Source: Bacillota bacterium
Lineage (GTDB): Bacteria > Bacillota > Clostridia > Peptostreptococcales > Anaerovoracaceae
Direction of reading: 5' to 3'
NCBI GenBank assembly: GCA_017397825.1
Contig: JAFQHT010000118.1
Location: 1-52,236, forward strand
DNA: 52,236 nucleotides
Of this stretch, positions 17,295 to 35,350 are shown one piece after another. The position numbers were made by a program, and so were the translations under genes. Position 1 is the first letter of the stretch. The number at the start of each line of letters is the position of its first letter. Below the pieces are notes generated by a model, which made no database searches, was not told the DNA's origin, and saw only the letters and a list, made by a program, of their open reading frames with translations.

Positions 17295-17295
17295 A

Positions 17296-20060: not shown

Positions 20061-20062
20061 TA

Positions 20063-20089
20063 GTGACACCGATAAAAAAATGATATAAA
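20063..20089 (+). promoter_or_regulatory. Probable promoter of the zinc-ribbon/SPFH array
   Basis: An extended -10, TGATATAAA at 20081-20089, with GTGACA (20063-20068) 15 bases upstream of the hexamer. The -35 region touches the inverted repeat at 20035-20060. Confidence 0.5.
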
Positions 20090-20124
20090 TAAACTAATAA
20101 AAAGGATGATAAGGAGGGAAAGTG

Positions 20125-20475
20125 ATGAATGAGACAATAGCAAGCAACATCAGAGACTTGTCCGACAGCGGTGAATTCAGATTCGCTGCCTCCTGTACAG
20201 TTTGCGGAAAAACATGGATAAGCACACCGACGCCTTTTTCTAAAGCTGAAGGTATCGTAAAAAGCGAAGTGAAAAAGTTTTTTTTCATGAAATGCTACCA
20301 TAAAGAAAAACGAAATGCGATGGCAGCTGCAATTAAGGAAGCGAAAAGCAGTCTTAATTTCTGTCCTGTCTGCAGAAGCCTTGTATGTGATGACTGTTTT
20401 ATGATATGTGAACATGATGACATGTGTATTGACTGTGCATCATATTTCCACGAAAAAGGTGAACGCGTCGATTAG
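20125..20475 (+). CDS. Small zinc-ribbon protein
   Basis: 116 residues. Three Cys groups suggest bound zinc: CTVCGK near residue 25, CPVC..VCDDC at about 80-90, and CEHDDMCIDC at about 95-104. The middle is a basic helix. I know no function; the pattern suggests a small metal-stabilised domain rather than an enzyme. AGGAGG at 20112-20117 lies 7 bases before ATG 20125; a GTG just before it is less likely. The gene is first after the operator region, and zinc ribbons recur in four of the next genes, so it probably belongs with that system. Confidence 0.65.
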   Translation: MNETIASNIRDLSDSGEFRFAASCTVCGKTWISTPTPFSKAEGIVKSEVKKFFFMKCYHKEKRNAMAAAIKEAKSSLNFCPVCRSLVCDDCFMICEHDDMCIDCASYFHEKGERVD

Positions 20476-20513
20476 TGGCGGAAATTAACAGCAGAAAAAG
20501 AAAGGAGAAAAAC

Positions 20514-21974
20514 ATGGGAAGATATAAAAAATTGATTCTTCTGCACTCCAATGATATGCATGGAGACTTCACCGCAGAGCATGTGGATGAAAAACTGGTC
20601 GGCGGTGTGAGCATGCTTTCAGGCTATATTGACAAGGTGAGACGGGAAGAAAAAAATACTCTTTACTGTATAGCCGGCGATATGTTCAGAGGTTCAGTAA
20701 TTGATTCTGAATTCAAAGGTATCAGTACAATTGAAATTATGAATGCTATTGCACCGGACGTCGTTACTTTGGGAAACCATGAAACCGACTACGGTGTGGC
20801 ACACCTTCTGTTTCTTGAAAAATGCGCCAAGTTCCCTATAATAAACGCCAATCTGTACATAAAATCCAATTCTGCACGTCTCTTTAATTCTCATCTGATA
20901 ATTGAAGTGGACGGCATGAAAATTCTGTTTATAGGTATTCTGACAGAAGAAGTAATGGCACAGACAAGGACTGAAGAAGTTATAGGTTCCTTCGTGGACA
21001 TCCACGATGCGGCCAGGGAAGTGGGCAGAATATGCAACGCATACAACGCCACAGACATTGACCTTACAGTGCTGATGACGCATATCGGCTTCGAGGAAGA
21101 TAAAAAGCTGGCAGCAGAGCTTGACCCGGCCTGGGGCGTGGATGTTATTATCGGCGGCCATTCACACACCTTCATTGAAGCTCCTGAGTTTGTAAATAAC
21201 GTTGCAATTGTGCAGGCAGGTACAGGTACCGACCAGATAGGCAGATTTGATATAGTAGTGGACACTTATGATAACAATATCGAAAGTTTTCAGTGGCAGG
21301 CTATTACTGTCAATAAGGAAAACTGTCCGCAGGACCCTGACATCATAAAGATTCTTGACACATATAAAAGCCACACTGACCAGAAATACGGCCGTACAGT
21401 AACACGTTTCCGTCGTCGTCTCACTCACCCTGAAAGAAATCAGGAAACGGAGCTGGGAGGACTTATGTCAGATATTCTGAAAGACAGTCTGGCCATAGAC
21501 ATAATGCTTCTTGGTTCAGGAAGCGTGAGATGCGACCTGGGACCGTTGGTTACTTATAAGGATTTTGTGGAGTGTTTCCCATTTGACGATTCCCTCCATA
21601 TGGTAACGGTTACAGGAGACCAGCTGAAGCGGATGCTTGCTTTCATGCTCCGCGACGAAGTGTGGCAGGGTGCTCACAACGAGTTTTACCAGCTTTCAAA
21701 GGGTATGAAGGTTGTGTATGATAAGGCAAAGGGCGAAATGCTTGAATTTTCTTATGAAGACAAGCCTATTGAACCGGAACAGATTTTCAGAATCGGTCTT
21801 CAGGAGTTCCATTTCCTCAATTTCACAGAGTTCTTCAATGTACCGTTTGAAGAGGTGGAAAAGAACAAGAAGCCAGTGACTCTGGCAACATCCACAAGAG
21901 ATGTTCTGGAAGAGTACCTGACTACTCACCAGCATCTTGACCGTGAAATCGACGGCAGACTTACATTGATTTAA
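20514..21974 (+). CDS. Metallophosphoesterase, 5'-nucleotidase family
   Basis: 486 residues. The N-terminal calcineurin-like domain has the metal-site motifs 'HSNDMHGD' at 11-18, 'GDMFRGS' near 60, 'LGNHETDYG' near 87 and 'GGHSHT' near 222. The C-terminal domain (about 310-486) is the 5_nucleotid_C type. Members hydrolyse nucleoside 5'-monophosphates or cyclic 2',3' phosphodiesters, usually in the cell envelope. Here there is no signal peptide, so it should be cytoplasmic. AAAGGAG precedes ATG 20514; a GTG start at 20475 overlapping the previous stop is less likely. The 53-base gap to the SPFH gene has no clear terminator, so it may be in the same unit. Confidence 0.85.
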   Translation: MGRYKKLILLHSNDMHGDFTAEHVDEKLVGGVSMLSGYIDKVRREEKNTLYCIAGDMFRGSVIDSEFKGISTIEIMNAIAPDVVTLGNHETDYGVAHLLFLEKCAKFPIINANLYIKSNSARLFNSHLIIEVDGMKILFIGILTEEVMAQTRTEEVIGSFVDIHDAAREVGRICNAYNATDIDLTVLMTHIGFEEDKKLAAELDPAWGVDVIIGGHSHTFIEAPEFVNNVAIVQAGTGTDQIGRFDIVVDTYDNNIESFQWQAITVNKENCPQDPDIIKILDTYKSHTDQKYGRTVTRFRRRLTHPERNQETELGGLMSDILKDSLAIDIMLLGSGSVRCDLGPLVTYKDFVECFPFDDSLHMVTVTGDQLKRMLAFMLRDEVWQGAHNEFYQLSKGMKVVYDKAKGEMLEFSYEDKPIEPEQIFRIGLQEFHFLNFTEFFNVPFEEVEKNKKPVTLATSTRDVLEEYLTTHQHLDREIDGRLTLI

Positions 21975-22027
21975 ATTATTAAAAAAATATTTAAGTATAC
22001 ACTTTTGTTTAATGAAAGGAGAATATT

Positions 22028-23308
22028 ATGGGACTTATCAGAGCAGCATTAGGATCAGCAGTTGGAACACTGGCAGATCAGTGGAAAGATTATTTTTATT
22101 GTGATTCAATTCCGGCAGACGTACTTATGGTAAAAGGCCGCAACAGAAACTCAGGCCGCTCCGGAAATACCGGCAGAACAAGCAATGTTATTTCAGACGG
22201 CTCAGTAATCAACGTAGCAGACGGACAGTGCGTAATGATCGTTGAAGCAGGTAAAATTGTTGACCTTTGTTCAGAGCCAGGCGATTTTACATATGATACA
22301 TCAATCGAACCTTCCATCTTCTGCGAAGGCCTTTCCAAGGAAAGCGTAAAGAGAGTATTTGAAGAGATGGGTAAGAGATTCGCTTTCGGCGGTGAACCAC
22401 CAAAGGATCAGCGTATCTACTACTTCAATACTAAAGAAATCATGGGCAACAAGTACGGAACACCTGCACCTGTTCCTTTCAGAGTTGTAGACCAGAGAGC
22501 AGGCATTGACATTGATATCGGCCTCAAGTGCTTCGGCGAATACAGTTTCAGGATTATCAACCCTATGCTTCTTTACAAGAATGTATGTGCAAATGTGGAA
22601 GAAATGTTTACCCGCCAGGAACTTGAAGGACAGATGAGAACTGAACTGCTCACAGCTCTTCAGCCTGCATTTGCAAAGATTTCAGCTATGGGCATCAGAT
22701 ATTCAGCTATTCCTGGCCACACAGCAGAGCTTACAGAAGTCCTCAGAGAAATTCTTTCTGAATCCTGGGGCGGCCGCATGGGCATTGAAATCCAGAAGGT
22801 TGGTATGTCCTCAATCAAGGCAGATGAAGAAGACGCAGCGATGAGCACGGATATGCAGCGTGCAGCAGCATACACAGATCCAAGCCTTGCAATGGCATAC
22901 ACCGTTGCATCCAGAGGCAAGGCTCTTCAGGACGCGGCAAACAATGAAGCAGGAGCCGCTACAGGCCTTATGGGCATGGGCATGGTCGGCGGCATGGGAG
23001 GTCAGGACAACATGATGCAGACACTGCTGCAGATGCAGCAGGCTCAGCAGATCCCACCGCAGCCGCAGCAGCAGGTTGGAATGCAGGTTAATCAGCCGGC
23101 AGTACCTCAGCAGCAGGCACCGGCAGGATGGACTTGTTCCTGCGGACATGTGAATACAGGTAAATTCTGCAGTGAATGCGGAAGTGCGAAACCGGCAGCA
23201 GCTCAGTTTAAGTGTGACAAGTGCGGATGGCAGCCTGAACCGGGTTCACAGCCGCCTAAGTTCTGTCCTGAATGCGGCGATAAATTTGATGGTAATGATA
23301 TAGGCTAA
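22028..23308 (+). CDS. SPFH-domain protein with C-terminal zinc ribbons (YdjI-like)
   Basis: 426 residues. The first 320 are an SPFH/virion-core-protein-like domain of the YdjI type: an N-terminal helix, then strands and the 'DQRAGIDIDIGLKCFGEYSFRI' region, and a helical part ending in 'RAAAYTDPSLAMAYTVASRG'. A Met/Gly/Gln-rich linker at about 315-375 leads to two zinc ribbons at about 375-420 ('CSCGHVNTGKFCSECG' and 'CDKCGWQ...CPECGDK'). In B. subtilis YdjI, with YdjG and YdjH, is encoded beside PspA and belongs to a membrane stress complex. AAAGGAG precedes ATG 22028. This is the first gene of a run with no internal terminators. Confidence 0.8.
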   Translation: MGLIRAALGSAVGTLADQWKDYFYCDSIPADVLMVKGRNRNSGRSGNTGRTSNVISDGSVINVADGQCVMIVEAGKIVDLCSEPGDFTYDTSIEPSIFCEGLSKESVKRVFEEMGKRFAFGGEPPKDQRIYYFNTKEIMGNKYGTPAPVPFRVVDQRAGIDIDIGLKCFGEYSFRIINPMLLYKNVCANVEEMFTRQELEGQMRTELLTALQPAFAKISAMGIRYSAIPGHTAELTEVLREILSESWGGRMGIEIQKVGMSSIKADEEDAAMSTDMQRAAAYTDPSLAMAYTVASRGKALQDAANNEAGAATGLMGMGMVGGMGGQDNMMQTLLQMQQAQQIPPQPQQQVGMQVNQPAVPQQQAPAGWTCSCGHVNTGKFCSECGSAKPAAAQFKCDKCGWQPEPGSQPPKFCPECGDKFDGNDIG

Positions 23309-23341
23309 CGAGCCTGAAAGAAAAGTAAAGGAGGTTCAGTT

Positions 23342-24103
23342 ATGGGTCTTTTTGATAAAATGTTTTCTAAAAAAATGTGTGATATCTGCGGCGAGGATAT
23401 GGGTATCGTGAGTGACAGAAAAGTTGAGGACGGCGCTATATGTAAAAAATGTTCCGCAAAGCTTTCACCTTGGTTCAGAGAAGGCCGCACTACTACTCTT
23501 GCAGAAATAAAAGAGCAGCTGGCATACCGTGAAGAAAACAAGACAGAAGTTGCAAAGTTCAATATAACAAGAACAATCGGCAGCGATAATTTAAAAATAC
23601 TTGTTGATGATGATGCAAGCAGATTTGTTGTGACAAGTGCAAGAAACCTTGAAGAAGCCAATCCGGATGTTCTTGATTTTGCACAGGTTACAGGCTGCGA
23701 CCTGGACGTAAGAGAAAGACGCACCGAAGAAAGACGCAAAAAAGAGGAAGGCGGATTTGAAAGTTACAATCCTCCTAGATACAGAGTGTACTATGATTTT
23801 TACATAACAATTCATGTAAATCACAAATATTTCAACGAAATTGAATTTAAAATCAACAGCTACAGTGTAGAGACGACTCCCTCAACAGGAGCCCCACAAC
23901 ACCGTATACCAGATCCTGAACTCAATAATGAGTACAGAGAATACAAAGAAATGGGAGAAGAAATCATAGCAATCCTGACAGATGTACACAAACAGGCGAG
24001 GGAAGATGCAGCACCTAAGGCAGCAGTAAAATGTCCTTACTGCGGAGCTACAACTGTTCCGAATGCCAGCGGATGCTGTGAATTCTGCGGAGGACCACTT
24101 TAA
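23342..24103 (+). CDS. DUF4428-like double zinc-ribbon protein
   Basis: 253 residues. The N-terminus 'MFSKKMCDICGEDMG...CKKCSAKL' (about residues 8-42) looks like the DUF4428 zinc domain. The middle, about 60-210, has alternating strands. The C-terminus 'CPYCGATTVPNASGCCEFCGGPL' is a second ribbon of the Cys-x2-Cys type. There is no membrane segment. Function is unknown; similar proteins occur beside SPFH/YdjI-like genes. AAAGGAGGT precedes ATG 23342, 33 bases after the previous stop. Confidence 0.65.
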   Translation: MGLFDKMFSKKMCDICGEDMGIVSDRKVEDGAICKKCSAKLSPWFREGRTTTLAEIKEQLAYREENKTEVAKFNITRTIGSDNLKILVDDDASRFVVTSARNLEEANPDVLDFAQVTGCDLDVRERRTEERRKKEEGGFESYNPPRYRVYYDFYITIHVNHKYFNEIEFKINSYSVETTPSTGAPQHRIPDPELNNEYREYKEMGEEIIAILTDVHKQAREDAAPKAAVKCPYCGATTVPNASGCCEFCGGPL

Positions 24104-24122
24104 GAAAAGGAGTTTTGAAGCT

Positions 24123-24647
24123 ATGAAAAATACAGTATTAAAAAGTGACAATGGCATATCTGTAAAATATGTTTTCAGCGAAATGCCGGAAAATGCAGGG
24201 GATTTAAAAGAACTGCTAGCAGAATATCCTCAGACTGACAAATTCAATACGGCAGCGTTTTTCATGGCCTCCCTTGTGCGCTATGTTAAAAATGCCGAAG
24301 ACGGACTTGCAATGATAGATGTTCTGAAAGGGCCGCAGCTTCTCAGCAATCCTGCAAAGTTGTTCGTAAAAGAACGTTTCATGGACAAAAAATATCTGGC
24401 TGAAGCATATTTTGAGGGTGCTGAACCGGAAAACAATTACGAACCTGATAAACCTATGACGCTTATTTTATATAATGATCTTGTGGAACCACCGGAAGGC
24501 TACAGCTACATAAATGTAAAAACTTCCGGAGCAGACAATCCGCGCCGCCTGGTCATGAGAATAAAGGACGGACACCACTACATATGGGAATATAACGGCC
24601 TTCTCATGGGCATACGTCTGCCGGCGCAGGAGGACCCTTGGTTATAA
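24123..24647 (+). CDS. Unknown soluble protein in SPFH array
   Basis: 174 residues with no signal peptide, no membrane segment and no Cys pairs. The mixed alpha/beta composition starts with a helical part 'LKELLAEYPQTDKFNTAAFFMASLVRYVKNAEDGLAMIDVLKG' and ends with strands: 'RLVMRIKDGHHYIWEYNGLLMGIRLPAQED'. I do not recognise the family with confidence. AAAAGGAG precedes ATG 24123; a longer reading runs into the previous gene and is rejected. The tight spacing on both sides (19 and 17 bases) ties it to the zinc-ribbon/SPFH neighbours. Confidence 0.6.
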   Translation: MKNTVLKSDNGISVKYVFSEMPENAGDLKELLAEYPQTDKFNTAAFFMASLVRYVKNAEDGLAMIDVLKGPQLLSNPAKLFVKERFMDKKYLAEAYFEGAEPENNYEPDKPMTLILYNDLVEPPEGYSYINVKTSGADNPRRLVMRIKDGHHYIWEYNGLLMGIRLPAQEDPWL

Positions 24648-24664
24648 AGGAGGAAGACTGAAAT

Positions 24665-25765
24665 ATGGAACGGAGTGTTACAAACTATCAGTGTCTGTCC
24701 TGTAACGGCCCGCTGCATTTTGTGGGCGAAAGCGGAATGCTGGAGTGCGATTACTGCGGCAGCAAGTTTTCCGTAGAACAGATAGACCAGGTCTATGGAA
24801 AGAAAGAACAGACACCTCCGCCGACTTTTGAAGAAAAGGCGGAAACCCACTGGGATCTGTCCGGTTTGTCAGAAAACTGGGAGGGCGAAGAAGTAAAAAT
24901 GCGCCAGTACAGCTGTCCGTCATGCGGCGCACAGCTTTTGTGGGAAGAATCAACGGCAGCAAGTCACTGCCCGTACTGCGGCAATCCGTCAGTAGCTCCG
25001 GAGCAGTTCGGAGGCATGCTCAGGCCGGATTATGTGATTCCGTTTGAGCTGAGCCCTGAAGAGGCAAAGAAAGCTCTTAAAGAGTTTTACAAAGGCAAGA
25101 AACTGCTTCCTAAGGAATTTGCCTCGGGCAACAGGATTGACAAGCTGCAGGGCGTGTACGTGCCTTTCTGGCTATATGACGGCAAGGCAGAGGCAGATAT
25201 ACATTTTCTCGGTACAATATCATCAACTAGAAGAGAAGGAGATTACGATGTAATCAGCACTTCCTACTACGATATCCACAGAGTCGGTGCTGTGCCTTTT
25301 GAAAGAATACCTGTGGACGCATCGGTAAAGATGCCTGACGAGTACATGGATTCCCTGGAGCCATTCGACTACGGAAAGATAAGACCTTTTTCCATGTCCT
25401 ATCTTCCGGGCTACCTGGCAGAAAGATATGGTCTTTCACCTAAGCAATGCATGAAACGTGCTGACTCCCGTGCACAGAATACCGCAAGAGATGTGCTGCG
25501 AAGCGATGTCAGAGGTTTCGGCAGTGTTTCAGTAAAGTCGGAATCCATATATCTTGACAGAGGCAAAGTGAGCTACGCACTGCTACCGGTGTACATTCTG
25601 AACACCAAATACGACGGCAAAGATTATCTTTTTGCCATGAATGGTCAGACAGGCAAGTTTGTAGGTGATCTGCCTGTCAGCAAGAAAAAATACTGGACAT
25701 ATTTCTTATCCGTATTTGCAGGTGTTACGGCTGTTATCGGAACAGCACTGACTGTATTTTTATAA
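24665..25765 (+). CDS. YdjG-like zinc-ribbon membrane protein
   Basis: 366 residues. Two zinc ribbons lie at the N-terminus: 'CLSCNGPL...CDYCGSKF' near 10-36 and 'CPSCGAQL...CPYCGNPS' near 85-112. The central domain, about 130-310, has the 'DYVIPFELSPEEAKKALKEFYKGKKLLPKEF' and 'LQGVYVPFWLYDGKAEAD' segments typical of the YdjG-type TFIIB-zinc-ribbon family. One membrane segment ends the protein (about 344-366). In B. subtilis the homologue sits in the pspA-ydjGHI operon, driven by sigma-W, and helps PspA at the membrane. GGAGGAAG precedes ATG 24665. It is followed after 15 bases by a YdjH-like gene, the same order as in Bacillus. Confidence 0.85.
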   Translation: MERSVTNYQCLSCNGPLHFVGESGMLECDYCGSKFSVEQIDQVYGKKEQTPPPTFEEKAETHWDLSGLSENWEGEEVKMRQYSCPSCGAQLLWEESTAASHCPYCGNPSVAPEQFGGMLRPDYVIPFELSPEEAKKALKEFYKGKKLLPKEFASGNRIDKLQGVYVPFWLYDGKAEADIHFLGTISSTRREGDYDVISTSYYDIHRVGAVPFERIPVDASVKMPDEYMDSLEPFDYGKIRPFSMSYLPGYLAERYGLSPKQCMKRADSRAQNTARDVLRSDVRGFGSVSVKSESIYLDRGKVSYALLPVYILNTKYDGKDYLFAMNGQTGKFVGDLPVSKKKYWTYFLSVFAGVTAVIGTALTVFL

Positions 25766-25780
25766 AGGAGGCGCAGAGCA

Positions 25781-26596
25781 ATGAAAAAAATTATTATCAG
25801 AGCATCTGTGCTTGTCCTGGTACTGACTTTGATTATCGGTATGTTCAGTATCAATGCTTTTGCAGATGAAAATAAAAGGCAGTATGTTTATGACCCCGCA
25901 TATCTTCTGACCGATGAGGAGTATGCAGATCTTAATGACCTGGCCGCGGAAATCAGTGAAAAATACCAGTGTGCAGTACATTTTGTGACAGATGACGACC
26001 CTTCTCTGAATCTGGACAATATCCAGATGTACGCAGAAGACCTTTACCTGAGCAGCCCTGCCCTGGGATGGGGCGAAAGCAAGGACGGCTTTATGCTGGT
26101 GCTGGGAACCGCCGAAAGATGTTACTGGCTGCTGGCATACGGACCTTATGGAAACTATGCCCTTACTGACTACGGCAAAGACTGGATGAGCGAAAATTTC
26201 CTGTCACATTTTGCAGATGATGACTGGTACGGAGGCTTCCGAACATACATAACCGACTGTGATTATGTGCTCAGCTGTGCAGCAGAAGGCAAGCCTGTTG
26301 ACATTTATTATGATGAAGATATCGGCCCAGAAGGTTACGGCATGGCCGGTATTGCAGGGCTGATTGCTTCTTTCATAACTTGTACAGTTCTCAAAAGCAA
26401 GATGAGAAATGTAAATATGGCAACAAGAGCAGAGAATTATCTGGATACAAGTAATGTAGAGATTCTGTACAGATATGACCAATATCTTTACACTGATGTA
26501 GACAGGGTAAGGAGAGAAACTGATAACGACGATGATTCCAGAGGAGGAACCACTGTCAACAGCAGAGGTTTCTCCGGCAAAGGCGGAAGTTTTTAG
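25781..26596 (+). CDS. TPM-domain membrane protein (YdjH-like)
   Basis: 271 residues. A signal peptide or N-terminal anchor covers residues 1-28 (cleavage near FADE). The TPM domain follows at about 30-165: 'DPAYLLTDEEYADLNDLAAEISEKYQCAVHFVTDDDPS' and 'WGESKDGFMLVLGTAERCYWLLAYGPYG'. A second membrane segment lies at about 185-205, then a basic helix and the Gly/Ser tail 'RGFSGKGGSF', as in YgcG/YdjH proteins. TPM domains are linked to membrane stress and, in related proteins, to photosystem repair or lipid-associated functions. It is the partner of the YdjG-like gene and AAAGGAGG precedes its ATG. Confidence 0.85.
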   Translation: MKKIIIRASVLVLVLTLIIGMFSINAFADENKRQYVYDPAYLLTDEEYADLNDLAAEISEKYQCAVHFVTDDDPSLNLDNIQMYAEDLYLSSPALGWGESKDGFMLVLGTAERCYWLLAYGPYGNYALTDYGKDWMSENFLSHFADDDWYGGFRTYITDCDYVLSCAAEGKPVDIYYDEDIGPEGYGMAGIAGLIASFITCTVLKSKMRNVNMATRAENYLDTSNVEILYRYDQYLYTDVDRVRRETDNDDDSRGGTTVNSRGFSGKGGSF

Positions 26597-26613
26597 GCAG
26601 GAGGTGTGTAAAG

Positions 26614-27660
26614 ATGATAAGAACCAAAACAAAAAATATATTAATAATACTGCTGATGCTGATTCTGTCGGTATCCATGACAGCCTGCGGCGGCAGCGGT
26701 GATGGAGACAATAAACCTTCACCTCCACCGGATGAACCGGTGAATGAAGGCCCGGACTGTGTAATGCTGCGCCAGGCAATGATTGAGACAACAGACATGG
26801 CGGCAGTCGCATTTCTTGGTTACTATGAAGGTGATTACGAAGGACTGGATGATTACCTTGACGAATACAAATTTGCTGAGGACCATCCTTTCATCAAGGA
26901 AATTGACGCAGACCATTTCATTGAGCATGAAGGCGACGAGCTTTACTGCATTGTTCCTGCAGATGAAGAAGCTTTCGTCAATGTCTATGAGTGGATTATC
27001 AGCGAAGAAAACGACTTCATGGGTGAAGTAGGCAATGTAATCTATGAAGGTGGGGCGGATCCTTTCTTCATCAAATGCAACATGAGCGACATTATGCCGA
27101 ACACTTTCGTCGAGGTAGTGGATTCAGCGGGCAATACCCTTGAATACATTCCGCAGATGAGTCTGATGAGCGGTACTCTCCTCAAGCCTTACGGGGCACC
27201 GACCATACTGGATTTCACCCCATATGAATCATTTACTGAATACTTCGGATTCGGATACGGTTTCAGCCTTGATAATCTCACTGCTGTAGGCAACTGGGTT
27301 ACAAGGGCTTATACAGTAAACGATGAGTTCGTTGAGGGAAACTGGTATTTCGGAGAAGACGGGACAGTGGAATTCTGCTATTCAGTCAGTGAAGGAAGGC
27401 CATATGAAATATACTATGAAGGTCAGTATTACGAAGCAGAAGGAAATGATGAGTTCCCTGAAAACACATACATCATGGATATGAAGCTTGCAGAAGACAA
27501 TTCCGAGCTGCAGATGGCCAGACCGGAAATTGTGACGGCAGTGACTTTCATGGAGTATCCTGATGATGTAAATGTGTTCATGTATTATCAGGGCGGAGAT
27601 TATATCTTCGATAATGCAGTAAGAAATAATGAATATGTACTGGAACCTACCATGGGTTAG
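26614..27660 (+). CDS. Unknown lipoprotein, acidic
   Basis: 348 residues. A lipoprotein signal is clear: basic start, hydrophobic core, then MTAC at the lipobox, so it is attached to the outer face of the membrane. A disordered Gly/Ser/Pro/Asp stretch follows, then a large acidic domain rich in Glu/Asp/Tyr. I find no catalytic motif. It is in the array 17 bases after the TPM gene, with CAGGAGGT upstream, and is the first of a series of lipoproteins. Its role may be sensing or holding something in the envelope; function is unknown. Confidence 0.65.
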   Translation: MIRTKTKNILIILLMLILSVSMTACGGSGDGDNKPSPPPDEPVNEGPDCVMLRQAMIETTDMAAVAFLGYYEGDYEGLDDYLDEYKFAEDHPFIKEIDADHFIEHEGDELYCIVPADEEAFVNVYEWIISEENDFMGEVGNVIYEGGADPFFIKCNMSDIMPNTFVEVVDSAGNTLEYIPQMSLMSGTLLKPYGAPTILDFTPYESFTEYFGFGYGFSLDNLTAVGNWVTRAYTVNDEFVEGNWYFGEDGTVEFCYSVSEGRPYEIYYEGQYYEAEGNDEFPENTYIMDMKLAEDNSELQMARPEIVTAVTFMEYPDDVNVFMYYQGGDYIFDNAVRNNEYVLEPTMG

Positions 27661-27699
27661 CAGGTACAGGAAAGTAATGAAAAGACAGGAGGTACGGCA

Positions 27700-28419
27700 A
27701 TGAATCCGGCTGAAGAAAAGAACACTCTGGAATTTGAGTTGTCCGGAGAAGATTTAAAACGCATAGAGGAAATCGCAGCGGAAATTGATCTGGACAGCGC
27801 CGCGGGGATTCTTCAGTACGGAACTTCCTGCCAGCAGAAAATAGACACTTTTTCCGACAGCGTCCTTGAAAACGCAAGGAAAAAGGATATGGGCAAGATA
27901 AGCGGGCTCATTGCAGAGCTCGCTGAGGAACTGAGAGGCGTTTCTTCCGGCGGCCGCAGAAAACGTATAAAGATGGAAAAGCTCGAAGACAATGTGGATA
28001 CTATGACGGCAATGCTTTATGATCATCAGAACCGGCTTCTGGAAGAAACCATCCGCCTTAAAAAGTTTTATCAGGAAAACCTGAGTTACTACAGGGAACT
28101 GACAATATATATTGAGGCGGGCAAAAGAAAACTGGAAATAACTGCAGGAGGAGCCATGCGTGAAAACTTTGAGAAGAAGATTCATGATCTGGAAGTTACA
28201 AGACTCATATGCGTGCAGATGGCTGCTCAGCTTGATATTATACGAAACAACAATGTTGCTGTCAGCGATAAAATACAGGCAGTACTCAAGAATGCCATAC
28301 CCCTGTGGAAAAACCGCATGACCACGGCAATGAGCATCGAGGATGCTGCTGAAAGCAACGGACAGCTGATATCGGCCCTGGATGAAATGGTCAGGGCACA
28401 GAATGAAGGGAGTGAATGA
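27700..28419 (+). CDS. Compact TelA-like (toxic anion resistance family) protein
   Basis: 239 residues, soluble, mostly helical. The TelA pattern is visible: 'GILQYGTSCQQKIDTFSDSVLENARKKDMGKISGLIAELAEEL' near 30-75, 'LLEETIRLKKFYQENLSYYRELTIYIEAGKRKL' near 120-150, 'KKIHDLEVTRLICVQMAAQLDIIRNNN' near 160-190, 'IPLWKNRMTTAM' near 203-215 and 'ESNGQLISALDEMVRAQNEG' at the end. Usual TelA proteins are about 360-390 residues; here the linkers between these blocks are shortened, while every conserved block remains. TelA was named for tellurite resistance, but its biochemical role is unknown. It is paired with an XpaC-like gene, an association known from Bacillus (xpaC-yceH-like). AGGAGGT precedes the ATG. 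Confidence 0.75.
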   Translation: MNPAEEKNTLEFELSGEDLKRIEEIAAEIDLDSAAGILQYGTSCQQKIDTFSDSVLENARKKDMGKISGLIAELAEELRGVSSGGRRKRIKMEKLEDNVDTMTAMLYDHQNRLLEETIRLKKFYQENLSYYRELTIYIEAGKRKLEITAGGAMRENFEKKIHDLEVTRLICVQMAAQLDIIRNNNVAVSDKIQAVLKNAIPLWKNRMTTAMSIEDAAESNGQLISALDEMVRAQNEGSE

Positions 28420-28421
28420 AC

Positions 28422-29060
28422 ATGAGAGGAAGCGGCGGAATAATAGTTTTGCTGGCGGCAGCAGCGGCCCTGCTGTTTTTCAGCGCCAAAGGACTGTTTC
28501 CGGCTCTTACCAAAGCACTGACGGTTTTTATCATAATAGTGATTGCTCTGGTAGTAATTCTTATTATTCTGGTTATGTATTTCGGTCTGAGAAAAGGCGA
28601 CAAGAGGAAACCGGGAACTCCTACTGTAAATGATAATCAGCAGATGGCCAAAGGCCGCCGCAATATTGTGGAACTGAGAAGTCTTGCCGGAAGAATCAAA
28701 AATCTTGATGTACAGAAACTCAGCGAAGAAATATGCGACGGAGCAGAAAAAATCCTTACAGCACTGAAAAACCATCCTGATAAAATTCAGGAGCTGTATC
28801 AGTTTTTCAGCTACTACCTTCCTACGCTGACCAGCATACTTAAAAAATATGTGGGTCTTGAAGAAGGGGGTAAAGCCACTGAAGAAATAATTGCAAGCAC
28901 ATCTTCTACCCTTGAAAACATTAAAAAAGCTCTGGAAAAGCAACATGATGGAATATTCGATGACGATGTGCTGGATATGTCGGTGGAAATGGAAGCACTG
29001 ACCGTTGCGTGCAGACGTGACGGCCTGCTGGACGATGAAGATTTCGGAGGTACAATATGA
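28422..29060 (+). CDS. XpaC-like membrane protein
   Basis: 212 residues. Two hydrophobic segments at about 8-26 and 34-55 form an N-terminal membrane hairpin. The cytoplasmic part has the XpaC pattern: 'LRSLAGRIKNLDVQKLSEEICDGAEKILTALKNHPDKIQELYQFFSYYLPTLTSILKKY'. XpaC proteins were named for hydrolysis of 5-bromo-4-chloroindolyl phosphate and are found in pairs with TelA, linked to stress response; direct function is not established. I chose ATG 28422, 9 bases after GGGAG; ATG 28416, which overlaps the TelA stop as ATGA, is also possible. Confidence 0.75.
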   Translation: MRGSGGIIVLLAAAAALLFFSAKGLFPALTKALTVFIIIVIALVVILIILVMYFGLRKGDKRKPGTPTVNDNQQMAKGRRNIVELRSLAGRIKNLDVQKLSEEICDGAEKILTALKNHPDKIQELYQFFSYYLPTLTSILKKYVGLEEGGKATEEIIASTSSTLENIKKALEKQHDGIFDDDVLDMSVEMEALTVACRRDGLLDDEDFGGTI

Positions 29061-29971
29061 TGAAGAAGGTAATGATAATGGCTTTGATATGCTGCCTTGG
29101 ATTTATGTACGGCTGCGGTGACAGTCCACAGGAACCGGATAAACCGGATGTGCCTCCTGATGGCCCACAGAACCAGACCGAAGAAGTACATGATCCGGTA
29201 ACAGAAGCCGACCTGGCAGATACATACTGGGTTGCCAGAGAATATATAGCAACAGAAATTGAAAACAGACCTGACACTGTGTACGAAATGCCTCATGAAG
29301 GCTGGAACGCAGACCTCATTCTCTATAAAGAAGGTGCTGCACGCCTCAGAAATGTAGAGGACTATACCTATGTTGAAGAAACGGCAGTTTTTGCTGATGC
29401 TTCATGGACTGTAGGAACTGATGGAAAGACACTGATACTGAGTGAATATGCAGGCGGTTCCGGAGAGACGCTTACGGGCTGGATGCAGGAAGGCAAGATT
29501 TATCTGAGCGACGGAACAGGAACTTTCATAATGGAAAAAGGAAGTATGCCTGTAAACGGTGCAGAGTGGCTGCCTGCTGATCTGGTAGGAACCTGGAAAC
29601 TGTCAACAAACGAAATTGAAGGTTATTTGGAAACTGCAGAGGAACTGGGCATTGAAGGATACATTTCCTTCGCTGCATATGATGGAGGACTTACTGCAGA
29701 TTATTACACCAGTGATGATTTCGGCATATTGACAGAGGTATTTGCAGATCAGGTTAAATACGAAGAAATGTCCCTCCATGAGGGCTGCGCAAATGAAGTC
29801 TGGTCAGTATCCTTTACTTCAGAAGATGGTCTGACAGAGTGCTATGCAACAATCATAGACCGTGACACTTTAAGGATGATGATTTTCAGTTATCTGGATG
29901 ATATGGAATATCCGGCTGTTGCCGTGCAGAACTTCCTGTGGCAGGGTAACGGCAGCGGTGCTGTAGGTTAA
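29057..29971 (+). CDS. Unknown lipoprotein with two beta-rich halves
   Basis: 304 residues. The signal ends in a lipobox 'MYGC', followed by a Pro/Asp-rich linker 'DKPDVPPDGPQNQTEE'. Two similar beta-rich halves follow: one starts 'DTYWVAREYIATEIENRPD' and the other 'GTWKLSTNEIEGYLETAEELG', in the manner of lipocalin-like or DUF-type lipoproteins of gut Firmicutes. No catalytic residues were seen. Its ATG overlaps the XpaC-like stop by 4 bases with GGAGGT upstream, which couples it to that gene. Confidence 0.6.
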   Translation: MMKKVMIMALICCLGFMYGCGDSPQEPDKPDVPPDGPQNQTEEVHDPVTEADLADTYWVAREYIATEIENRPDTVYEMPHEGWNADLILYKEGAARLRNVEDYTYVEETAVFADASWTVGTDGKTLILSEYAGGSGETLTGWMQEGKIYLSDGTGTFIMEKGSMPVNGAEWLPADLVGTWKLSTNEIEGYLETAEELGIEGYISFAAYDGGLTADYYTSDDFGILTEVFADQVKYEEMSLHEGCANEVWSVSFTSEDGLTECYATIIDRDTLRMMIFSYLDDMEYPAVAVQNFLWQGNGSGAVG

Positions 29972-29986
29972 AAAGGAGTGATTATT

Positions 29987-30892
29987 ATGAAAAAGAAAAA
30001 TCTGTTGAGAATGCTTATACTGGCACTGGTGCTGGTACTTGCAGTTGCAGCTTCAGGCTGCGGCGGTGAGACGGGCAATAATCCAGAAGATAACCCGCCG
30101 GACGATCCTGTAATCAATGACCCTGTTGACAATGACCCTGTTATTGATAATCCTGTGGAAGACGATTCAATTCACGTAAGCTCAACGGAAGAACTTTTCG
30201 CAGCCATTGCTCCAGGTGCAAAAATTGTCATAGAACCAGGATATTACAACATGAGCGAGTTTGTGGAAACCTTTGACCATGAATCCATGGTTACATGGAA
30301 TCAGGAAAACCCATACATACGCCTTGAAGAATGTTTTGACGGAAACGATGTGTTCATCCGCAATGTGGACGGGCTTTCCATTGCCGGCGGAGGCGAAAAC
30401 TTTTCAGATACTGAAATCGTGGTAGAACCGCGGTATGCGGCGATTCTGTCTTTCGAGAACTGTAAAGACATTGAAATTTCCAATATTACCATGGGTCATA
30501 CCATGCAGTCCGATTGTTCCGGAAATGTGCTGAACTTTTTCGGCTGCGATAATGTGAATCTGGACAAAGCAGACCTTTACGGCTGCGGAGTCATCGGAAT
30601 AAATGCCAAGCAGAACTGCGGAGATATTACTGTAACTGACAGTATTATAAGAGACTGTTCTTACGGTCCGATAGAGATCGCAGAATGCCAGGGCAGATAT
30701 GAATTCAGAAACTGCGTTTTTAAAGGCTCAATGGGCGGTGGATATTATGAAAAATCCGGCAGCTCAGAGTTATGTTTCTACGATTGTGAATTCGGAAGTG
30801 AAGAAACCAACATATGGTACTTTTATGAAGATATAGTTGCAGAAAACTGTGAATGGGGCGAAATCACACAGTACCCTGATTACGGTTGGTAA
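29987..30892 (+). CDS. Lipoprotein with right-handed parallel beta-helix
   Basis: 301 residues from ATG 29987, 9 bases after AAGGAG. The lipobox is ASGC, then a low-complexity Asp/Pro/Asn/Val linker of the pattern 'NDPVDNDPVIDNP'. From about residue 65 the chain reads as a parallel beta-helix: repeated short strands with 'IEPGYYNMSEF', 'NVDGLSIAGGGEN', 'NCKDIEISNITMGH', 'GCDNVNLDKADLYGCG', 'NCGDITVTDSIIRDCSYG'. Such folds bind or cut polysaccharides, but catalytic residues cannot be assigned. It is on the outer membrane face and in the same array as its neighbours. Confidence 0.65.
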   Translation: MKKKNLLRMLILALVLVLAVAASGCGGETGNNPEDNPPDDPVINDPVDNDPVIDNPVEDDSIHVSSTEELFAAIAPGAKIVIEPGYYNMSEFVETFDHESMVTWNQENPYIRLEECFDGNDVFIRNVDGLSIAGGGENFSDTEIVVEPRYAAILSFENCKDIEISNITMGHTMQSDCSGNVLNFFGCDNVNLDKADLYGCGVIGINAKQNCGDITVTDSIIRDCSYGPIEIAECQGRYEFRNCVFKGSMGGGYYEKSGSSELCFYDCEFGSEETNIWYFYEDIVAENCEWGEITQYPDYGW

Positions 30893-30915
30893 AGAAAGAA
30901 GCAGGAGGAACAGCA

Positions 30916-32079
30916 ATGAAGAAAAAATTTTTAAGTCTGCTTCTTGCAGGCGTCATGATATTTGCCTCAGCTGCATGCGGAGCGCAGGAACCTGCAGGCC
31001 CTGTGGACAGCACTGATGATTCTGATAGCACACAGCAGAGCCAGGACGTAAGCACTGAGGATACAGTTGTTGTAGTTGACGGAATGGAACTCGGAAGCGG
31101 CCTTATTGCAGAAGAGGAGCCTCTGGCTGAAGTGGATGCAAACCCTGACAGAGACATTGACCGCGCTGTGGAACCGATAAAACCGGTATTTGACACCATG
31201 CTGGACGGAACACCGCTGACAGAAAAGTTTTATTATTACCGCGGCACGCTGGATGAAACTTATCAGCAGGCATATGACCTTATCCGCAGTCACCTGATGA
31301 AAGGTTCAGAACAGTTCTCCATGACAGTACCTGTCAAAAAAGAAGACTTTTTTGATATTTACAAAAAAGTAATTTATGACAGCCCGGAACTTTTCTGGGC
31401 GGAAGTAAACGGTTCATGCTATTCATACAACAATGCAGGACTGGTTGTGTCTTTCAAGCCGGGATACAATGATCTGGTAGAGGACATTGAAGGCAATACC
31501 GCAGCCCTTGAAGAGGCAACAGCTGAAGCTCTGGCAGACATGTGGAGCCTTGACACAGATGCAGAAAAAGCAAAATATGCCCATGACTGGCTTATATATA
31601 ATATCAAGTATAATCTTGATGCCCCATATAACCAGACCAGTTTCAGTGCTCTGGCAAAAGGTTCAACTGTGTGCGCAGGATACGCTCACGGTTTCCAGTA
31701 CATGATGCAGCAGATGGGTATTCCATGTGCTTACATACTGGGTTATACTGCAGGAGGCTACCATGCGTGGAACATTGTAAAGCTTGACGGCAAGCATTAT
31801 GCAATGGACGTTACATGGGATGACCCTATCAACGGCAAAAAAGGAAAGTATTATTACACATACTTTAATATAACAGACAAAAAGATGTCCAAAGACCATG
31901 AGCGTGAGGATATTTCAGCTGTTCTGCCTGTAGCCAAAGGAACTGCCTGCAGCTACAAAAATGCTTTCGGAGGCAACTCACCGGGTACTGATTTCAAGGG
32001 TATCAAGGGTAAAATGCCGGAAAAAATCCAGCCTGAACAGTCAGGTGATGATACCGGAGGAAACCCTTACCTTTCATAA
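30916..32079 (+). CDS. Transglutaminase-like lipoprotein
   Basis: 387 residues. The signal ends with the lipobox SAAC. A variable region follows to about residue 95. The transglutaminase-like domain lies at about 200-310, with the catalytic triad C253 (in 'STVCAGYAH'), H283 (in 'GGYHAWNIV') and D298 (in 'AMDVTWDDP'). Bacterial members of this fold are usually peptidases or cross-linking enzymes acting on envelope proteins or peptidoglycan; direction of activity is not known. AGGAGG precedes ATG 30916. It is followed 32 bases later by a clostripain-type lipoprotein, so two cysteine enzymes sit side by side. Confidence 0.82.
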   Translation: MKKKFLSLLLAGVMIFASAACGAQEPAGPVDSTDDSDSTQQSQDVSTEDTVVVVDGMELGSGLIAEEEPLAEVDANPDRDIDRAVEPIKPVFDTMLDGTPLTEKFYYYRGTLDETYQQAYDLIRSHLMKGSEQFSMTVPVKKEDFFDIYKKVIYDSPELFWAEVNGSCYSYNNAGLVVSFKPGYNDLVEDIEGNTAALEEATAEALADMWSLDTDAEKAKYAHDWLIYNIKYNLDAPYNQTSFSALAKGSTVCAGYAHGFQYMMQQMGIPCAYILGYTAGGYHAWNIVKLDGKHYAMDVTWDDPINGKKGKYYYTYFNITDKKMSKDHEREDISAVLPVAKGTACSYKNAFGGNSPGTDFKGIKGKMPEKIQPEQSGDDTGGNPYLS

Positions 32080-32111
32080 GACAGAAGCGCTGTATATAGG
32101 AGAACCATGTT

Positions 32112-34058
32112 ATGAAAAAAACATTTATCAGTCTGCTGCTTATTCTGGCATTGGCGCTTACATTCAGTGCCTGCGGACAGTATGACAATACAGGCGAGAC
32201 AGAGTGGGCCATATACTGGTATCTTTGCGGCAGCGATCTGGAAAGCTGGTACGGCTGTGCCACCGATGACCTTGAGGAAATGCTGGCGGCTGAAATCCCT
32301 GAAAATGTGAAAGTAGTCATTGAAACCGGCGGCGCTCTTGAGTGGGAACATAAAAAAATAGACGCTGATAAAATCGACCGCTTCATTTACAACAAAGGAA
32401 AACTCAAAAAAGTAGAAACGCAGCCTCAGGCTGATATGGGCGACGCAGCCACACTGGAAGACTTTCTCAGGTTCTGCACTGAAAACTACCCTGCAGAGAA
32501 GCAGATGGTGCTTTTCTGGGACCATGGAGGGGGCAGTGTTACCGGATCGGAGTTCGACATCAATTATGCCTTTGACTCACTGACCATAGAAGAATTTCAT
32601 GATGCTTTCGAAGCGGTGTTCGGGACAGACGCAGAAGAACCGCCGTTTGAAGTAATCGGTTTTGATGCCTGCCTTATGGCTACCATAGACGTGGCAAGTG
32701 CATTCAGCGACTTCGGAAAGTACATGGTAGCTTCCCAGGAACTGGAACCGGGAAATGGCTGGTACTATACCGGCTGGCTCCAGGCTCTGGCAGAAAACCC
32801 TGAAATGGATGGCGCGGCCCTCGGCAAAGCAATCTGCGATGCCTATGTACAGGGCTGTGAAATGGCAGGTACAGGTGAAGATGTTACTCTTTCTGTTACG
32901 GACCTTTCCAGAATTGACCGCCTGCTTGAAGCCTATAATGAAATGGGTACGGCAGCATTGATGGGAACCGCTGAAGAGCCGGCTGTATTTACTTCTTTCA
33001 GCAGAGGCGCAGTCTATGCCGAAAACTACGGCGGAAATACAGAGGAAGAAGGTTACACCAATATGGTGGACCTGGGACACCTTTGCAGGAACAACGCTTA
33101 CCTTCTGCCTGACAGCAGCGTGGAAGTCCAGAAAGCGCTGGAAGAGTGCATAGTATATAAAGTAAACGGCCCTTACAGAACAGAAGCAAGCGGTCTCAGC
33201 TGCTATCACTCATATAATGGAGATATAGAAAACTTTGTGGACTACACAGAGGTTGGATGCAGTGAGGCTTTCAAATATTTTTACGGATATGGCCTGAGCG
33301 GCGAAATGAGCAAAGCAGGTATTCAGTATCTTCAGGATAAGGGAGTACATGAAGAGGACATTGCCGTTGACAGCGGGATGCTGGATATTTCAGTTCTTGA
33401 AGGCTGGGATGTGTATATCGATGATTATGGCAATGCCGTGCTGGACGTACTGCCCAGGGGAGCTGAGCCAATTGTCAATGTACGAACAAAAGTTGTAATG
33501 GATGATGGGGTAAGCGACTATTTCAGATTTCTGGGAGAAAGCGGCCAGATTCATTACGACTATGAGGAAGGAATTTTCACCAGCCCGATTACAGGTTACT
33601 GGCCATCTATAGACGGTAACTTTGTCTTTACAAGAATGCTTTATCAGGGAGAGGATTATACTGTATATTCAGTTCCTGTGCTGCTCAACGGTGAAGAGTA
33701 TAACCTGAGAGTGGTTTATGATCACGACAAGCAGGATTATACTGTGCTCGGTGCACGAAAAGGTCTTACCGACGTGGGTATGCCGGATAAACATCTGGTA
33801 CAGCTCAGACCGGGCGATGTACTGACTACGATCTATCTTGACCGGTCGCTGACCGGAGAGGGAGGTTTTGACCACAGGGCAGGTGCAAACATTACTGTTA
33901 CGGAAGAAACCATGTTTTATGAAGCACCGCTTCCTGACGGAAGGTACAGTTTCCTCTTTGAAATGACCGATGCCCGCGGAAAGACAGCCTGGTCAGAAAT
34001 GGCTGATTTTGAACTGGATGAAGGATATATTTATCTGACATATTACACATCGTTTTAA
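32112..34058 (+). CDS. Clostripain-family cysteine peptidase lipoprotein
   Basis: 648 residues. The lipoprotein signal ends with SAC at about residue 21. The peptidase C11 domain covers about 30-420: the catalytic His is H138 in 'LFWDHGGG' and the nucleophile C187 in 'GFDACLMAT', in a caspase-like fold. The C-terminal 200 residues are beta-rich. Clostripain itself cleaves after Arg and is self-processed; the processing site here is not obvious. As a lipoprotein it should act on the outside of the cell, perhaps on proteins of the same system. AGGAGA precedes ATG 32112. Confidence 0.85.
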   Translation: MKKTFISLLLILALALTFSACGQYDNTGETEWAIYWYLCGSDLESWYGCATDDLEEMLAAEIPENVKVVIETGGALEWEHKKIDADKIDRFIYNKGKLKKVETQPQADMGDAATLEDFLRFCTENYPAEKQMVLFWDHGGGSVTGSEFDINYAFDSLTIEEFHDAFEAVFGTDAEEPPFEVIGFDACLMATIDVASAFSDFGKYMVASQELEPGNGWYYTGWLQALAENPEMDGAALGKAICDAYVQGCEMAGTGEDVTLSVTDLSRIDRLLEAYNEMGTAALMGTAEEPAVFTSFSRGAVYAENYGGNTEEEGYTNMVDLGHLCRNNAYLLPDSSVEVQKALEECIVYKVNGPYRTEASGLSCYHSYNGDIENFVDYTEVGCSEAFKYFYGYGLSGEMSKAGIQYLQDKGVHEEDIAVDSGMLDISVLEGWDVYIDDYGNAVLDVLPRGAEPIVNVRTKVVMDDGVSDYFRFLGESGQIHYDYEEGIFTSPITGYWPSIDGNFVFTRMLYQGEDYTVYSVPVLLNGEEYNLRVVYDHDKQDYTVLGARKGLTDVGMPDKHLVQLRPGDVLTTIYLDRSLTGEGGFDHRAGANITVTEETMFYEAPLPDGRYSFLFEMTDARGKTAWSEMADFELDEGYIYLTYYTSF

Positions 34059-34078
34059 AAGAGAGGTGGCGCGGAAAG

Positions 34079-34780
34079 ATGAAAAAAACAATTGTAATTG
34101 TGATTTCTTTAATTCTTGCATTTTCAATATCGGCCTGCAGCAAAGAAGACGATGTTATTTCACCGGAACCGACAGGAGCTGAAATATACAGCGGACTGCT
34201 GGATGAGTTTTATGAAGTAATTGCTTCAGGAGAGGCTATGTCAAGTGAACTAGAAGGCGCCTTTGCAATTTATGAAGGGCTTGGGCATATGGATGTAAGC
34301 GAAATGCTCAATGCAGCAGGATATGCAGTTAAAGATGTCAACGGCGACGGAACTCCTGAACTGCTTATAGGCCTGATTTCGGATTACGAAGAGGGCAAGG
34401 CTGAAGGCAATATACTGTATGCCCTTTATACTTATTCCGGCGAAAAACCTGTGTGTGTAACTGAAAGTTACGTCCGCGACGGATACCGGTGGATGGACGA
34501 TGGAAAGTTCTGCTATACCGGTTCAGGTGGTGCGGCAAACTCAGGCTTCGGAGTGTTCAGCCTTCCGGCAGGAAGCACAGAACTGGCATGTGAAGATTTC
34601 TGGTTCTCTGATATAAAAGAGGGTACAGATACCGAAATAGGATATTATCATAACACTTCAGGAAGCTGGAATGCCGGAGAATCCGTAGAACTGGCAGTTT
34701 CAAACGATGATTTCTGGGAAATGGAAGAAGAACTCCTTGCACAGGTAAAAAACTTTGAAATGACCATTTTTGCAGAATAG
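34079..34780 (+). CDS. Small unknown lipoprotein
   Basis: 233 residues. The signal ends at a lipobox 'ISAC', followed by a Ser/Lys/Glu/Asp linker. The rest, from about residue 45, is alpha/beta: 'DGTPELLIGLISDY' and 'WMDDGKFCYTGSGGAANSGFGVFSLPAGS' are the more distinctive parts. The stretch 'KDVNGDGTPELLIG' (about 83-96) looks like an FG-GAP/calcium-loop motif, a common ending of such extracellular sensing domains. I do not recognise a family. It follows the clostripain gene by 20 bases, with GAGAGGTGG upstream. Confidence 0.65.
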   Translation: MKKTIVIVISLILAFSISACSKEDDVISPEPTGAEIYSGLLDEFYEVIASGEAMSSELEGAFAIYEGLGHMDVSEMLNAAGYAVKDVNGDGTPELLIGLISDYEEGKAEGNILYALYTYSGEKPVCVTESYVRDGYRWMDDGKFCYTGSGGAANSGFGVFSLPAGSTELACEDFWFSDIKEGTDTEIGYYHNTSGSWNAGESVELAVSNDDFWEMEEELLAQVKNFEMTIFAE

Positions 34781-34810
34781 GGTAAAACCAAAGGGAGGGT
34801 CATAAACATA

Positions 34811-35350
34811 ATGTATCAAAAAGGAAGGTGCACATATCTTATGATTGGAATTATATGTGTAGTAATTGCAATTGCTATAGTTATTCTTCTTTCTTTTTCA
34901 GTAAGGCAAAAAGAATATGTGGTTGGAACCGATATTGCAGCAGAGGATATTACGGAATTCTATTATACATATTCTTCCTCAACGTATCCGCCAGAATATC
35001 AAAGATATCGTTTTTATAAAGAAAAAGAAGCGTATAAGTTCTTCCACGAAAAGAGAGAGGGATACGATTGGCCTCTTACAGAGGCACATATCAAACTTTC
35101 CGATTCGATAGAATTATCAGAAAAAGAATGGACGGAATTCCTGAATTATTTAAATGGCGGAAAGGTCAAAGAGAGAAATCAGAGCTTTGAAGCAGGTAGG
35201 CCCGGTCCTTGGTTATATCTGTACTGGGAAGGGGATAGGGCTAAATATCAGGAATTTTATTTTCCGACCTTACACGAAGAAAAAGCTTTTGAGAATTTTT
35301 GTGCAGAACTTGTAAAGTTAAACAGAGAGCAGTCTGAAAAGTGTTTTTGA
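34811..35350 (+). CDS. Single-pass membrane protein of unknown family
   Basis: 179 residues. After a short basic start (MYQKGRCTYL) comes one membrane segment at about residues 10-29, with no lipobox. The outer part has a repeated aromatic/acidic character ('FYYTYSSSTYPPEYQRYRFYKEKEAYKFF') and ends with 'WLYLYWEGDRAKYQEFYFP' and a Cys two residues from the end. The DNA is A+T-richer and uses more A/T third positions than the genes before it. GGGAGGG is upstream. It may be the last gene of the array, perhaps acquired separately. Confidence 0.55.
   Translation: MYQKGRCTYLMIGIICVVIAIAIVILLSFSVRQKEYVVGTDIAAEDITEFYYTYSSSTYPPEYQRYRFYKEKEAYKFFHEKREGYDWPLTEAHIKLSDSIELSEKEWTEFLNYLNGGKVKERNQSFEAGRPGPWLYLYWEGDRAKYQEFYFPTLHEEKAFENFCAELVKLNREQSEKCF

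Follow-up and report, generated by a model that had tools for sequence, protein, structure and literature searches.

We report a putative 16-gene operon in a Bacillota bacterium of the family Anaerovoracaceae (assembly GCA_017397825.1, contig JAFQHT010000118.1; the 52,236 nucleotides analysed are referred to here as the window). The operon joins a YdjGHI-type set, consisting of an SPFH protein, a YdjG-like zinc ribbon protein, and a TPM-domain protein, to a TelA/XpaC pair and a series of lipoproteins. It contains no pspA, and a transcription regulator with a seven-transmembrane (7TM) domain and a LuxR domain is encoded divergently beside it. We propose that the operon is an inducible cassette for envelope protection: its YdjGHI platform would rely on TelA/XpaC rather than PspA and on a changing set of surface lipoproteins. 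We give this proposal an even chance of being correct. The architecture and the predicted control are supported by sequence features; we infer the envelope role and the substitution for PspA. An initial annotation of the window had described the joining of the two sets, which was confirmed by the domains found in one run, and the unit proved to be larger than first described. The shortened TelA, the divergent regulator, the operator-promoter region, and the boundaries of an insertion had been overlooked.

Architecture and conservation of the operon

Fourteen genes on the same strand occupy positions 22028-35350, with a widest gap of 39 bases. The initial annotation recognized this tight run and its spacing, and its count of thirteen genes was not upheld. 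Two 4-base overlaps (at 28416 and 29057) lie within the run, and most of the starts are preceded by GGAG/AGGAGG motifs resembling ribosome-binding sites, consistent with the strong sites previously described. A zinc-ribbon gene and a nucleotidase gene had been suggested to precede the run. The CxxC-rich gene znr0 and the gene nuc5 overlap by 1 base, and nuc5 ends 53 bases before the SPFH gene; therefore, the run consists of 16 genes from position 20122. In a scan of positions 19000-37000, no terminator-like site was found on the + strand between the operon genes, in agreement with the earlier description. Two weak + strand sites (20793 and 34189) both lie within coding sequence, and the total of 19 sites on both strands is close to the shuffle mean of 14.3 (standard deviation 4.0). 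The run looks like a single operon with a conserved proximal core.

All of the operon genes are on the + strand. The first, znr0 (20122-20475), encodes 117 amino acids with CxxC pairs. It is followed by nuc5 (20475-21974), a UshA/CD73-type metallophosphoesterase with a 5_nucleotid_C domain (PF00149, PF02872), in which no signal peptide was seen and which matched the nucleotidase structure 3ivd in a sequence search of the PDB (9.8e-35). The SPFH protein (22028-23308; Band_7_1, PF13421, 5e-16) has C-terminal zinc ribbons and is YdjI-like. A DUF4428 protein with a C-terminal zinc ribbon (23342-24103; PF14471, 3.7e-12) and a DUF6935 protein (24123-24647; PF22043, 7.6e-36) separate it from the YdjG-like zinc ribbon protein (24665-25765), which has a C-terminal transmembrane segment (TM), and from the YdjH-like TPM-domain protein (25781-26596; PF04536, 6e-15). 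LpA (26614-27660), a lipoprotein that recurs in extended operons, precedes a TelA of 239 amino acids, termed mini-TelA (27700-28419; PF05816, 2.1e-38 in two stretches), and an XpaC-like protein (28416-29060; PF10112, which we take to be the XpaC family, 1.9e-23). The distal genes encode the lipoprotein LpB (29057-29971; a weak lipocalin-like match to PF13648, E=0.003, below the cut-off), a beta-helix lipoprotein (29978-30892; PF13229, 8.3e-9), a transglutaminase-like lipoprotein (30916-32079; PF01841, 2.3e-13), a clostripain (C11)-family lipoprotein (32112-34058; PF03415, 4.7e-44), the lipoprotein LpC (34079-34780), and MemD, a small N-terminally anchored protein (34811-35350). The longest open reading frames (ORFs) of the DUF6935 and transglutaminase-like genes begin at 24063 and 30886, respectively; their starts are probably at 24123 and 30916. 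DUF6935 had no match by sequence in the PDB, and the matches of TelA and YdjG were weak, the best being 0.006 (a NifU chain) and 0.03 (a zinc-ribbon chain).

The initial annotation listed at least five lipoproteins. By eye, lipoprotein signal peptides were recognized in six of the 16 operon products (LpA, LpB, the beta-helix, transglutaminase-like, and C11 proteins, and LpC), and a seventh lipoprotein, LpE (35555-36028, + strand), is encoded just after the operon with a gap of 204 bases before its start. Beyond LpE lies a hairpin (36102-36133) that is terminator-like on the - strand and has a more distant T-run on the + strand.

Profiles of the window proteins served to annotate the relatives. 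The simple gene caller used in this work is prone to antisense errors. A scan of genome contigs for YdjG-like proteins gave 53 loci, some of which were clipped by contig ends. The gene order was conserved in relatives; with this and the lack of an internal terminator, neither refutation foreseen by the initial annotation held at the sequence level. Locus L004 contains the regulator and znr0-nuc5-nuc5-SPFH-DUF4428-DUF6935-YdjG-TPM-LpA-TelA-XpaC, namely, ten families plus the regulator in the order of the window. L006 has the window order from SPFH to XpaC, where the contig stops. L007 has the regulator, znr0, three nuc5 copies, SPFH, DUF4428, YdjG, TPM, and LpA, followed by a different set of exported proteins. 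Some of the same families occur in other orders in L022, L029, L036, L040, L042, L109, L117, L137, and L156.

YdjG was found in 74 of 296 genomes of the family, including that of the window, and in none of the five other genomes of the same genus. DUF4428 occurs in 46 of the 296, and of 20 additional DUF4428 loci that were retrieved, eight also have SPFH on the stretch; DUF6935 was found in 7 of 61 relatives and znr0 in 2 of 398 genomes of the phylum, each count including the present genome, and the second znr0 has a different neighbourhood. Among 108 other YdjG loci, many are short, four repeat other records or are near-copies, and some similar loci remain. Subtracting these four and L025, which was lost in gene calling, left 103 classed loci. 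Fifteen are extended, with a mean of 7.9 genes per run, and 88 are simple, with a mean of 3.8, some runs being clipped by contig ends. We also noted a locus of Selenomonas infelix (L050, 6364-14403) in which a single SPFH gene precedes three YdjG-TPM pairs in tandem, and two facing SPFH-YdjG-TPM sets in L006 (1-10881), one simple and the other with TelA-XpaC.

Boundaries and control region of the probably gained unit

A genome of the same genus (G001) matches the window at 14801-17312 and, after 134 bases, at 36175-36894; the 18.9 kb between the two matches are absent, leaving an empty site. In another (G004), an Fe-S gene, an abhydrolase gene (59% identical), a gene encoding 277 amino acids, and an aldo/keto reductase gene are adjacent. 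Since the abhydrolase lies at the ancestral site in G004, it is old, and the gained unit extends from approximately 18250 to approximately 36170. For the same reason, we rejected the abhydrolase gene (17296-18249) as a member of the unit; G001 afterwards lost it. These comparisons support the gain, as one unit of approximately 18 kb, of p185, the regulator, the operon, and LpE. The alternative, loss in both relatives, may also explain the pattern. The left end is probably p185 (18249-18806, - strand), a small membrane-anchored protein without a Pfam match at E 0.01; with a tblastn threshold of E 1e-15, it also had no match in stretches L272-L276 from the same genus. We considered whether a gene of L004 encoding 505 amino acids fuses p185 to the abhydrolase and rejected this because there was no real similarity.

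No tRNA was found in the window, no integrase or transposase matched over the cut-off among the window proteins scanned, and no common repeat of 11-30 bases was found between 17291-18900 and 35341-36200. A plasmid or phage origin was rejected; among the matches listed, only relatives of YdjG, at 41% identity or less, came from plasmid (13) and phage (8) records. Outside the operon, positions 512-4900 encode a protein of 1462 amino acids with a signal-peptide-like start.

The regulator (18823-19920, - strand) combines a HisKA_7TM domain (PF16927, 1.2e-16) with a GerE domain (PF00196, 4.6e-16). Upstream of the operon lie direct half-site repeats (CACCCCTTAAA, 20003-20028, + strand), a candidate operator ATTACCC-N14-GGGTAAT (20034-20061), and a candidate extended -10 box (TGATATAAA, 20081-20089, + strand), the hexamer of which (20084-20089) begins 22 nucleotides past the operator. 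HisKA_7TM-GerE homologs are also encoded divergently and face the module in L004, L007, L022, L029, L040, and L137. The same heptamer palindrome occurs in the upstream regions of L004 (N16) and L007 (N14), and L022 and L029 have CYACACY-N13-RGTGTGG. In all five regions, including that of the window, a -10-like hexamer (TATAAA three times, TAAAAT, and TATAAT) begins exactly 22 nucleotides after the repeat, 2.4% of region positions matching as well; the box is of the extended type in the window, L004, and L007. The general pattern of repeat and spacing gave a sole match per region in these five; when each region was shuffled 1000 times, it occurred in 0.1-1.4% of the shuffles. The rule itself was framed after these five sequences had been inspected. 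The module-facing region of L137, which was outside the framing, failed the strict 22-nucleotide rule. It contains CCCACCC-N13-GTGTGGG with one mismatch, followed, as read by eye, by TATACT after 21 nucleotides. Thus, five of the seven module-facing regions follow the strict rule and a sixth is off by one base.

The window, L004, and L007 share a near-identical helix-turn-helix, whereas those of L022, L029, and L040 differ from it. The repeat types agree with this grouping; the repeat type follows the DNA-binding domain of the regulator. TTACCCN{10,20}GGGTAA had one match in the window and none in 100 shuffles. The whole genome had three matches, versus one for the control; the other two lie within coding genes, and a genome-wide regulon defined by the palindrome was therefore rejected. 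The candidate operator rests on position, spacing, and covariation, and rarity gives it no support. Beside the regulator in L004 (415-1932) and L007 (1-1479), we observed, on the - strand, a membrane-anchored protein of approximately 500 amino acids with Cys-x-x-Cys repeats, which was not seen beside the window regulator.

Joined TelA/XpaC pairs and the absence of PspA

TelA together with XpaC was found in four of the 108 other YdjG loci and XpaC alone in one; the window is not unique in joining both sets. In the alignment with full TelA, the window protein lacks internal blocks and is shortened at both ends; it covers positions 1-146 and 177-253 of the 332-position PF05816 profile. A search of 148 family genomes found TelA in 58, in 57 of them over the cut-off. 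Twenty-nine TelA loci were taken from this search, two of which had already been counted as joined (L143 and L146), leaving 27 stand-alone loci. XpaC lies directly before TelA in 25 of these, and the other two had no XpaC match, while all five joined loci (the window, L004, L006, L143, and L146) have the order TelA-XpaC. We constructed a tree of 32 TelA proteins from the five joined loci, 26 of the 27 stand-alone loci (with flanks seen for approximately 1.5 kb only), and the second copy of the present genome. The five joined proteins form one side of a branch with support of 100/98, and on this tree the joined TelA is a distinct lineage. The second copy groups with a copy from the same genus; accordingly, mini-TelA as a recent duplicate of it was unsupported. 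This second copy lies in locus L071 of the present genome (G000 contig C103, 4738-8230), where XpaC, the full-length TelA, a membrane protein of 189 amino acids, and TPM are encoded in one run.

The initial annotation noted the absence of pspA. At the genome level, no match to PF04012 at E 1e-3 was found in six genus members, namely, the present assembly, which is 82% complete, and five others. With this completeness, the absence from the present genome is only suggestive. The same search detected matches in six of 61 relatives, two of them over the cut-off, and no PspA-like ORF was found in the 108 YdjG loci queried with two local PspA proteins. SPFH-YdjG-TPM sets without pspA are common, and the absence is not special to the window locus.

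Proposed function and comparison with known systems

In the proposed cassette, the 7TM domain would sense an envelope or extracellular signal, and the LuxR domain would bind the inverted repeat and switch the operon on. Since the repeat sits just upstream of the -35 region, the regulator is probably an activator. YdjG and the TPM protein would draw the SPFH protein to the membrane, as in Bacillus subtilis, the DUF4428 and DUF6935 proteins may join this platform, and the dedicated TelA-XpaC pair would replace PspA as the cytoplasmic partner. The surface lipoproteins may work outside, on the wall or on an attacking agent; LpA is the recurrent one, and the peptidase, transglutaminase, and beta-helix types vary between lineages. 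The cytosolic nucleotidase-like enzyme may make or clear a small phosphorylated metabolite. We consider a bolder version unlikely, in which TelA-XpaC, with its own TelA lineage, took over the membrane-remodelling role of PspA, and the operon is a PspA-independent repair machine with a membrane LuxR switch and exchangeable lipoproteins.

This proposal draws on published work. The sigma-W regulon of B. subtilis lists both pspA-ydjGHI and xpaC-yaaN (PMC3498285). Both sets are co-regulated in this manner, and their merging into one operon would therefore be a natural step. YdjG/YdjH of B. subtilis draw PspA to the membrane, as well as YdjI, a protein that affects fluidity (PMC8581546). A Listeria TelA mutant is cited as being more sensitive to nisin (PMC12791056), and an XpaC-like gene and telA1 are listed in a transcriptome table of Lactococcus lactis from a study on membrane-protein overproduction (PMC3139573). 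Some homologs of the phage-defence nuclease SNIPE that lack a TM have DUF4428 at their N-terminus (PMC13190303), a hint that the domain may serve in recruitment to the membrane. For a membrane switch made of a single protein, the transmembrane LuxRs of Eggerthella lenta provide a precedent (PMC9734109). The envelope-stress reading of the initial annotation is thus partly supported: it fits the sigma-W listing, and the function of the operon we infer.

Several observations weigh against the envelope-protection proposal. TelA occurs in four and XpaC in five of the 15 other extended runs; therefore, most extended runs lack the proposed substitute for PspA. The end branch of mini-TelA is very long (3.53); the gene either is decaying or encodes a short form that has become specialised. 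The present genome also has an ordinary XpaC-TelA locus. None of the relatives examined was found to have the distal genes, from LpB to MemD, as a block. Regarding control, L040 has the regulator without such a repeat in its region, the region of a second regulator in L137 has no repeat match, and no repeat was found in L131, L219, L220, or upstream of the regulator in L221, where the only match, unlike and mismatched, lies between SPFH and the regulator. Across the order, 17 of 393 genomes contained the exact palindrome, versus eight for the reversed control (by row count), and none of the other 16 genomes has a 7TM-LuxR gene within approximately 1.5 kb of it. We accordingly rejected the idea that the palindrome marks the system throughout the order.

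Another explanation, also unlikely in our judgement, is that SPFH-YdjG-TPM is a chaperone-like organiser that assembles, displays, or processes surface lipoproteins and has no part in stress defence. At least one lipoprotein was found in 12 of the 15 extended runs and in nine of the 88 simple runs; this enrichment is partly circular because LpA, present in ten extended runs, is among the criteria for the class. Of the nine simple matches, four are TPM proteins. When LpA and TPM matches were excluded, the counts were 8 of 15 and 5 of 88. The automated flagging used for these runs caught five of the six operon lipoproteins recognized by eye. The cargo varies by locus, with a metallo-beta-lactamase-like protein in L007 and CAP-domain and C11 proteins in L042, and a C11 homolog adjoins YdjG in L152. 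Moreover, Ravi et al. proposed that band-7/TPM proteins have a chaperone-like role with PspA and are often coupled to surface lipoproteins (PMC11237479). However, 79 of the 88 simple runs show no lipoprotein, and relatives of TelA/XpaC have been linked to envelope stress. We also observed that DUF6935 has a lipoprotein signal peptide in L004 (9161-9922) and L006 (7818-8618) and lacks one in the window, so that the family spans both sides of the membrane. By eye, a longer sensor-like protein is encoded beside a sugar-binding-like lipoprotein in L022 (8391-9962), L137 (12890-15908), and L279 (925-3992), a hint of sugar sensing.

We regard it as less probable still that the operon is induced by a substrate, the regulator sensing a small molecule to be broken down or salvaged by the exported enzymes together with the nucleotidase. 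In E. lenta, transmembrane LuxRs respond to their substrates by activating adjoining catabolic genes (PMC9734109), and nuc5 is present in two to three copies in L004, L007, and L040. However, no transporter or catabolic pathway was recognized among the domains of the operon, its core is of the membrane-scaffold type, and nuc5 has no visible signal peptide. A role in defence against phages, bacteriocins, or rival cells would suit an operon that is patchy and acquired as a unit, and DUF4428 is shared with some SNIPE homologs; however, PADLOC returned no match for nine of the ten proteins submitted from the 16 and a weak zinc-ribbon match for the tenth, and no nuclease or toxin-like domain was recognized. 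We regard this role as quite improbable. That several unrelated short operons abut by chance and are carried together is very improbable: the distal half is not found as a block elsewhere, whereas the narrow gaps from 22028, the two overlaps, the lack of terminators, and the conserved proximal order argue for one unit, as do relatives of C11 and LpE in module locus L042, where the LpE relative adjoins TPM (3e-6 among 4460 ORFs, 9e-9 among 15 sequences).

Both TelA and XpaC occur widely, and we know of no mechanism for either; the YdjGHI platform has been known chiefly as the anchor of PspA. The present operon suggests that a membrane-protection platform can run without its usual partner. By uniting both sets without PspA, it provides a direct, testable hypothesis on the role of each, together with candidate partners (DUF4428, DUF6935, LpA, and a cytosolic nucleotidase) and a predicted operator for a sensor and regulator combined in one protein. 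In the portions of the open literature searched, no description of the joining of TelA/XpaC with an SPFH-YdjG-type set and no mention of DUF6935 were found; a 2012 comparative study of Ter systems may discuss TelA/XpaC contexts.

The PspA neighbourhoods surveyed by Ravi et al. (2024; PMC11237479) share the association of band-7, TPM, and zinc-ribbon proteins and the coupling to lipoproteins, whereas that survey starts from PspA, and TelA and XpaC are absent from the available portions of its main text. Similar to DadR, HcdR, and CadR of E. lenta, the regulator combines a membrane domain with a C-terminal LuxR helix-turn-helix and adjoins its presumed target genes; however, the E. lenta proteins have 10-12 TMs, while the window protein is 7TM (HisKA_7TM by Pfam), its neighbour is an envelope-type operon, and activation is putative. 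As in the xpaC-yaaN (TelA) pairs of Bacillota, XpaC (PF10112) stands beside TelA (PF05816), but the window has the order TelA-XpaC, a separate TelA lineage of 239 amino acids, and a place within a YdjGHI-like operon. By Pfam domains, the operon shares with pspA-ydjGHI of B. subtilis the SPFH protein with a C-terminal zinc ribbon, the YdjG zinc ribbons with a TM, and TPM. In contrast to that operon, it lacks pspA and differs in order, and it adds DUF4428, DUF6935, LpA, TelA-XpaC, the nucleotidase, the lipoproteins, and an adjacent 7TM-LuxR regulator.

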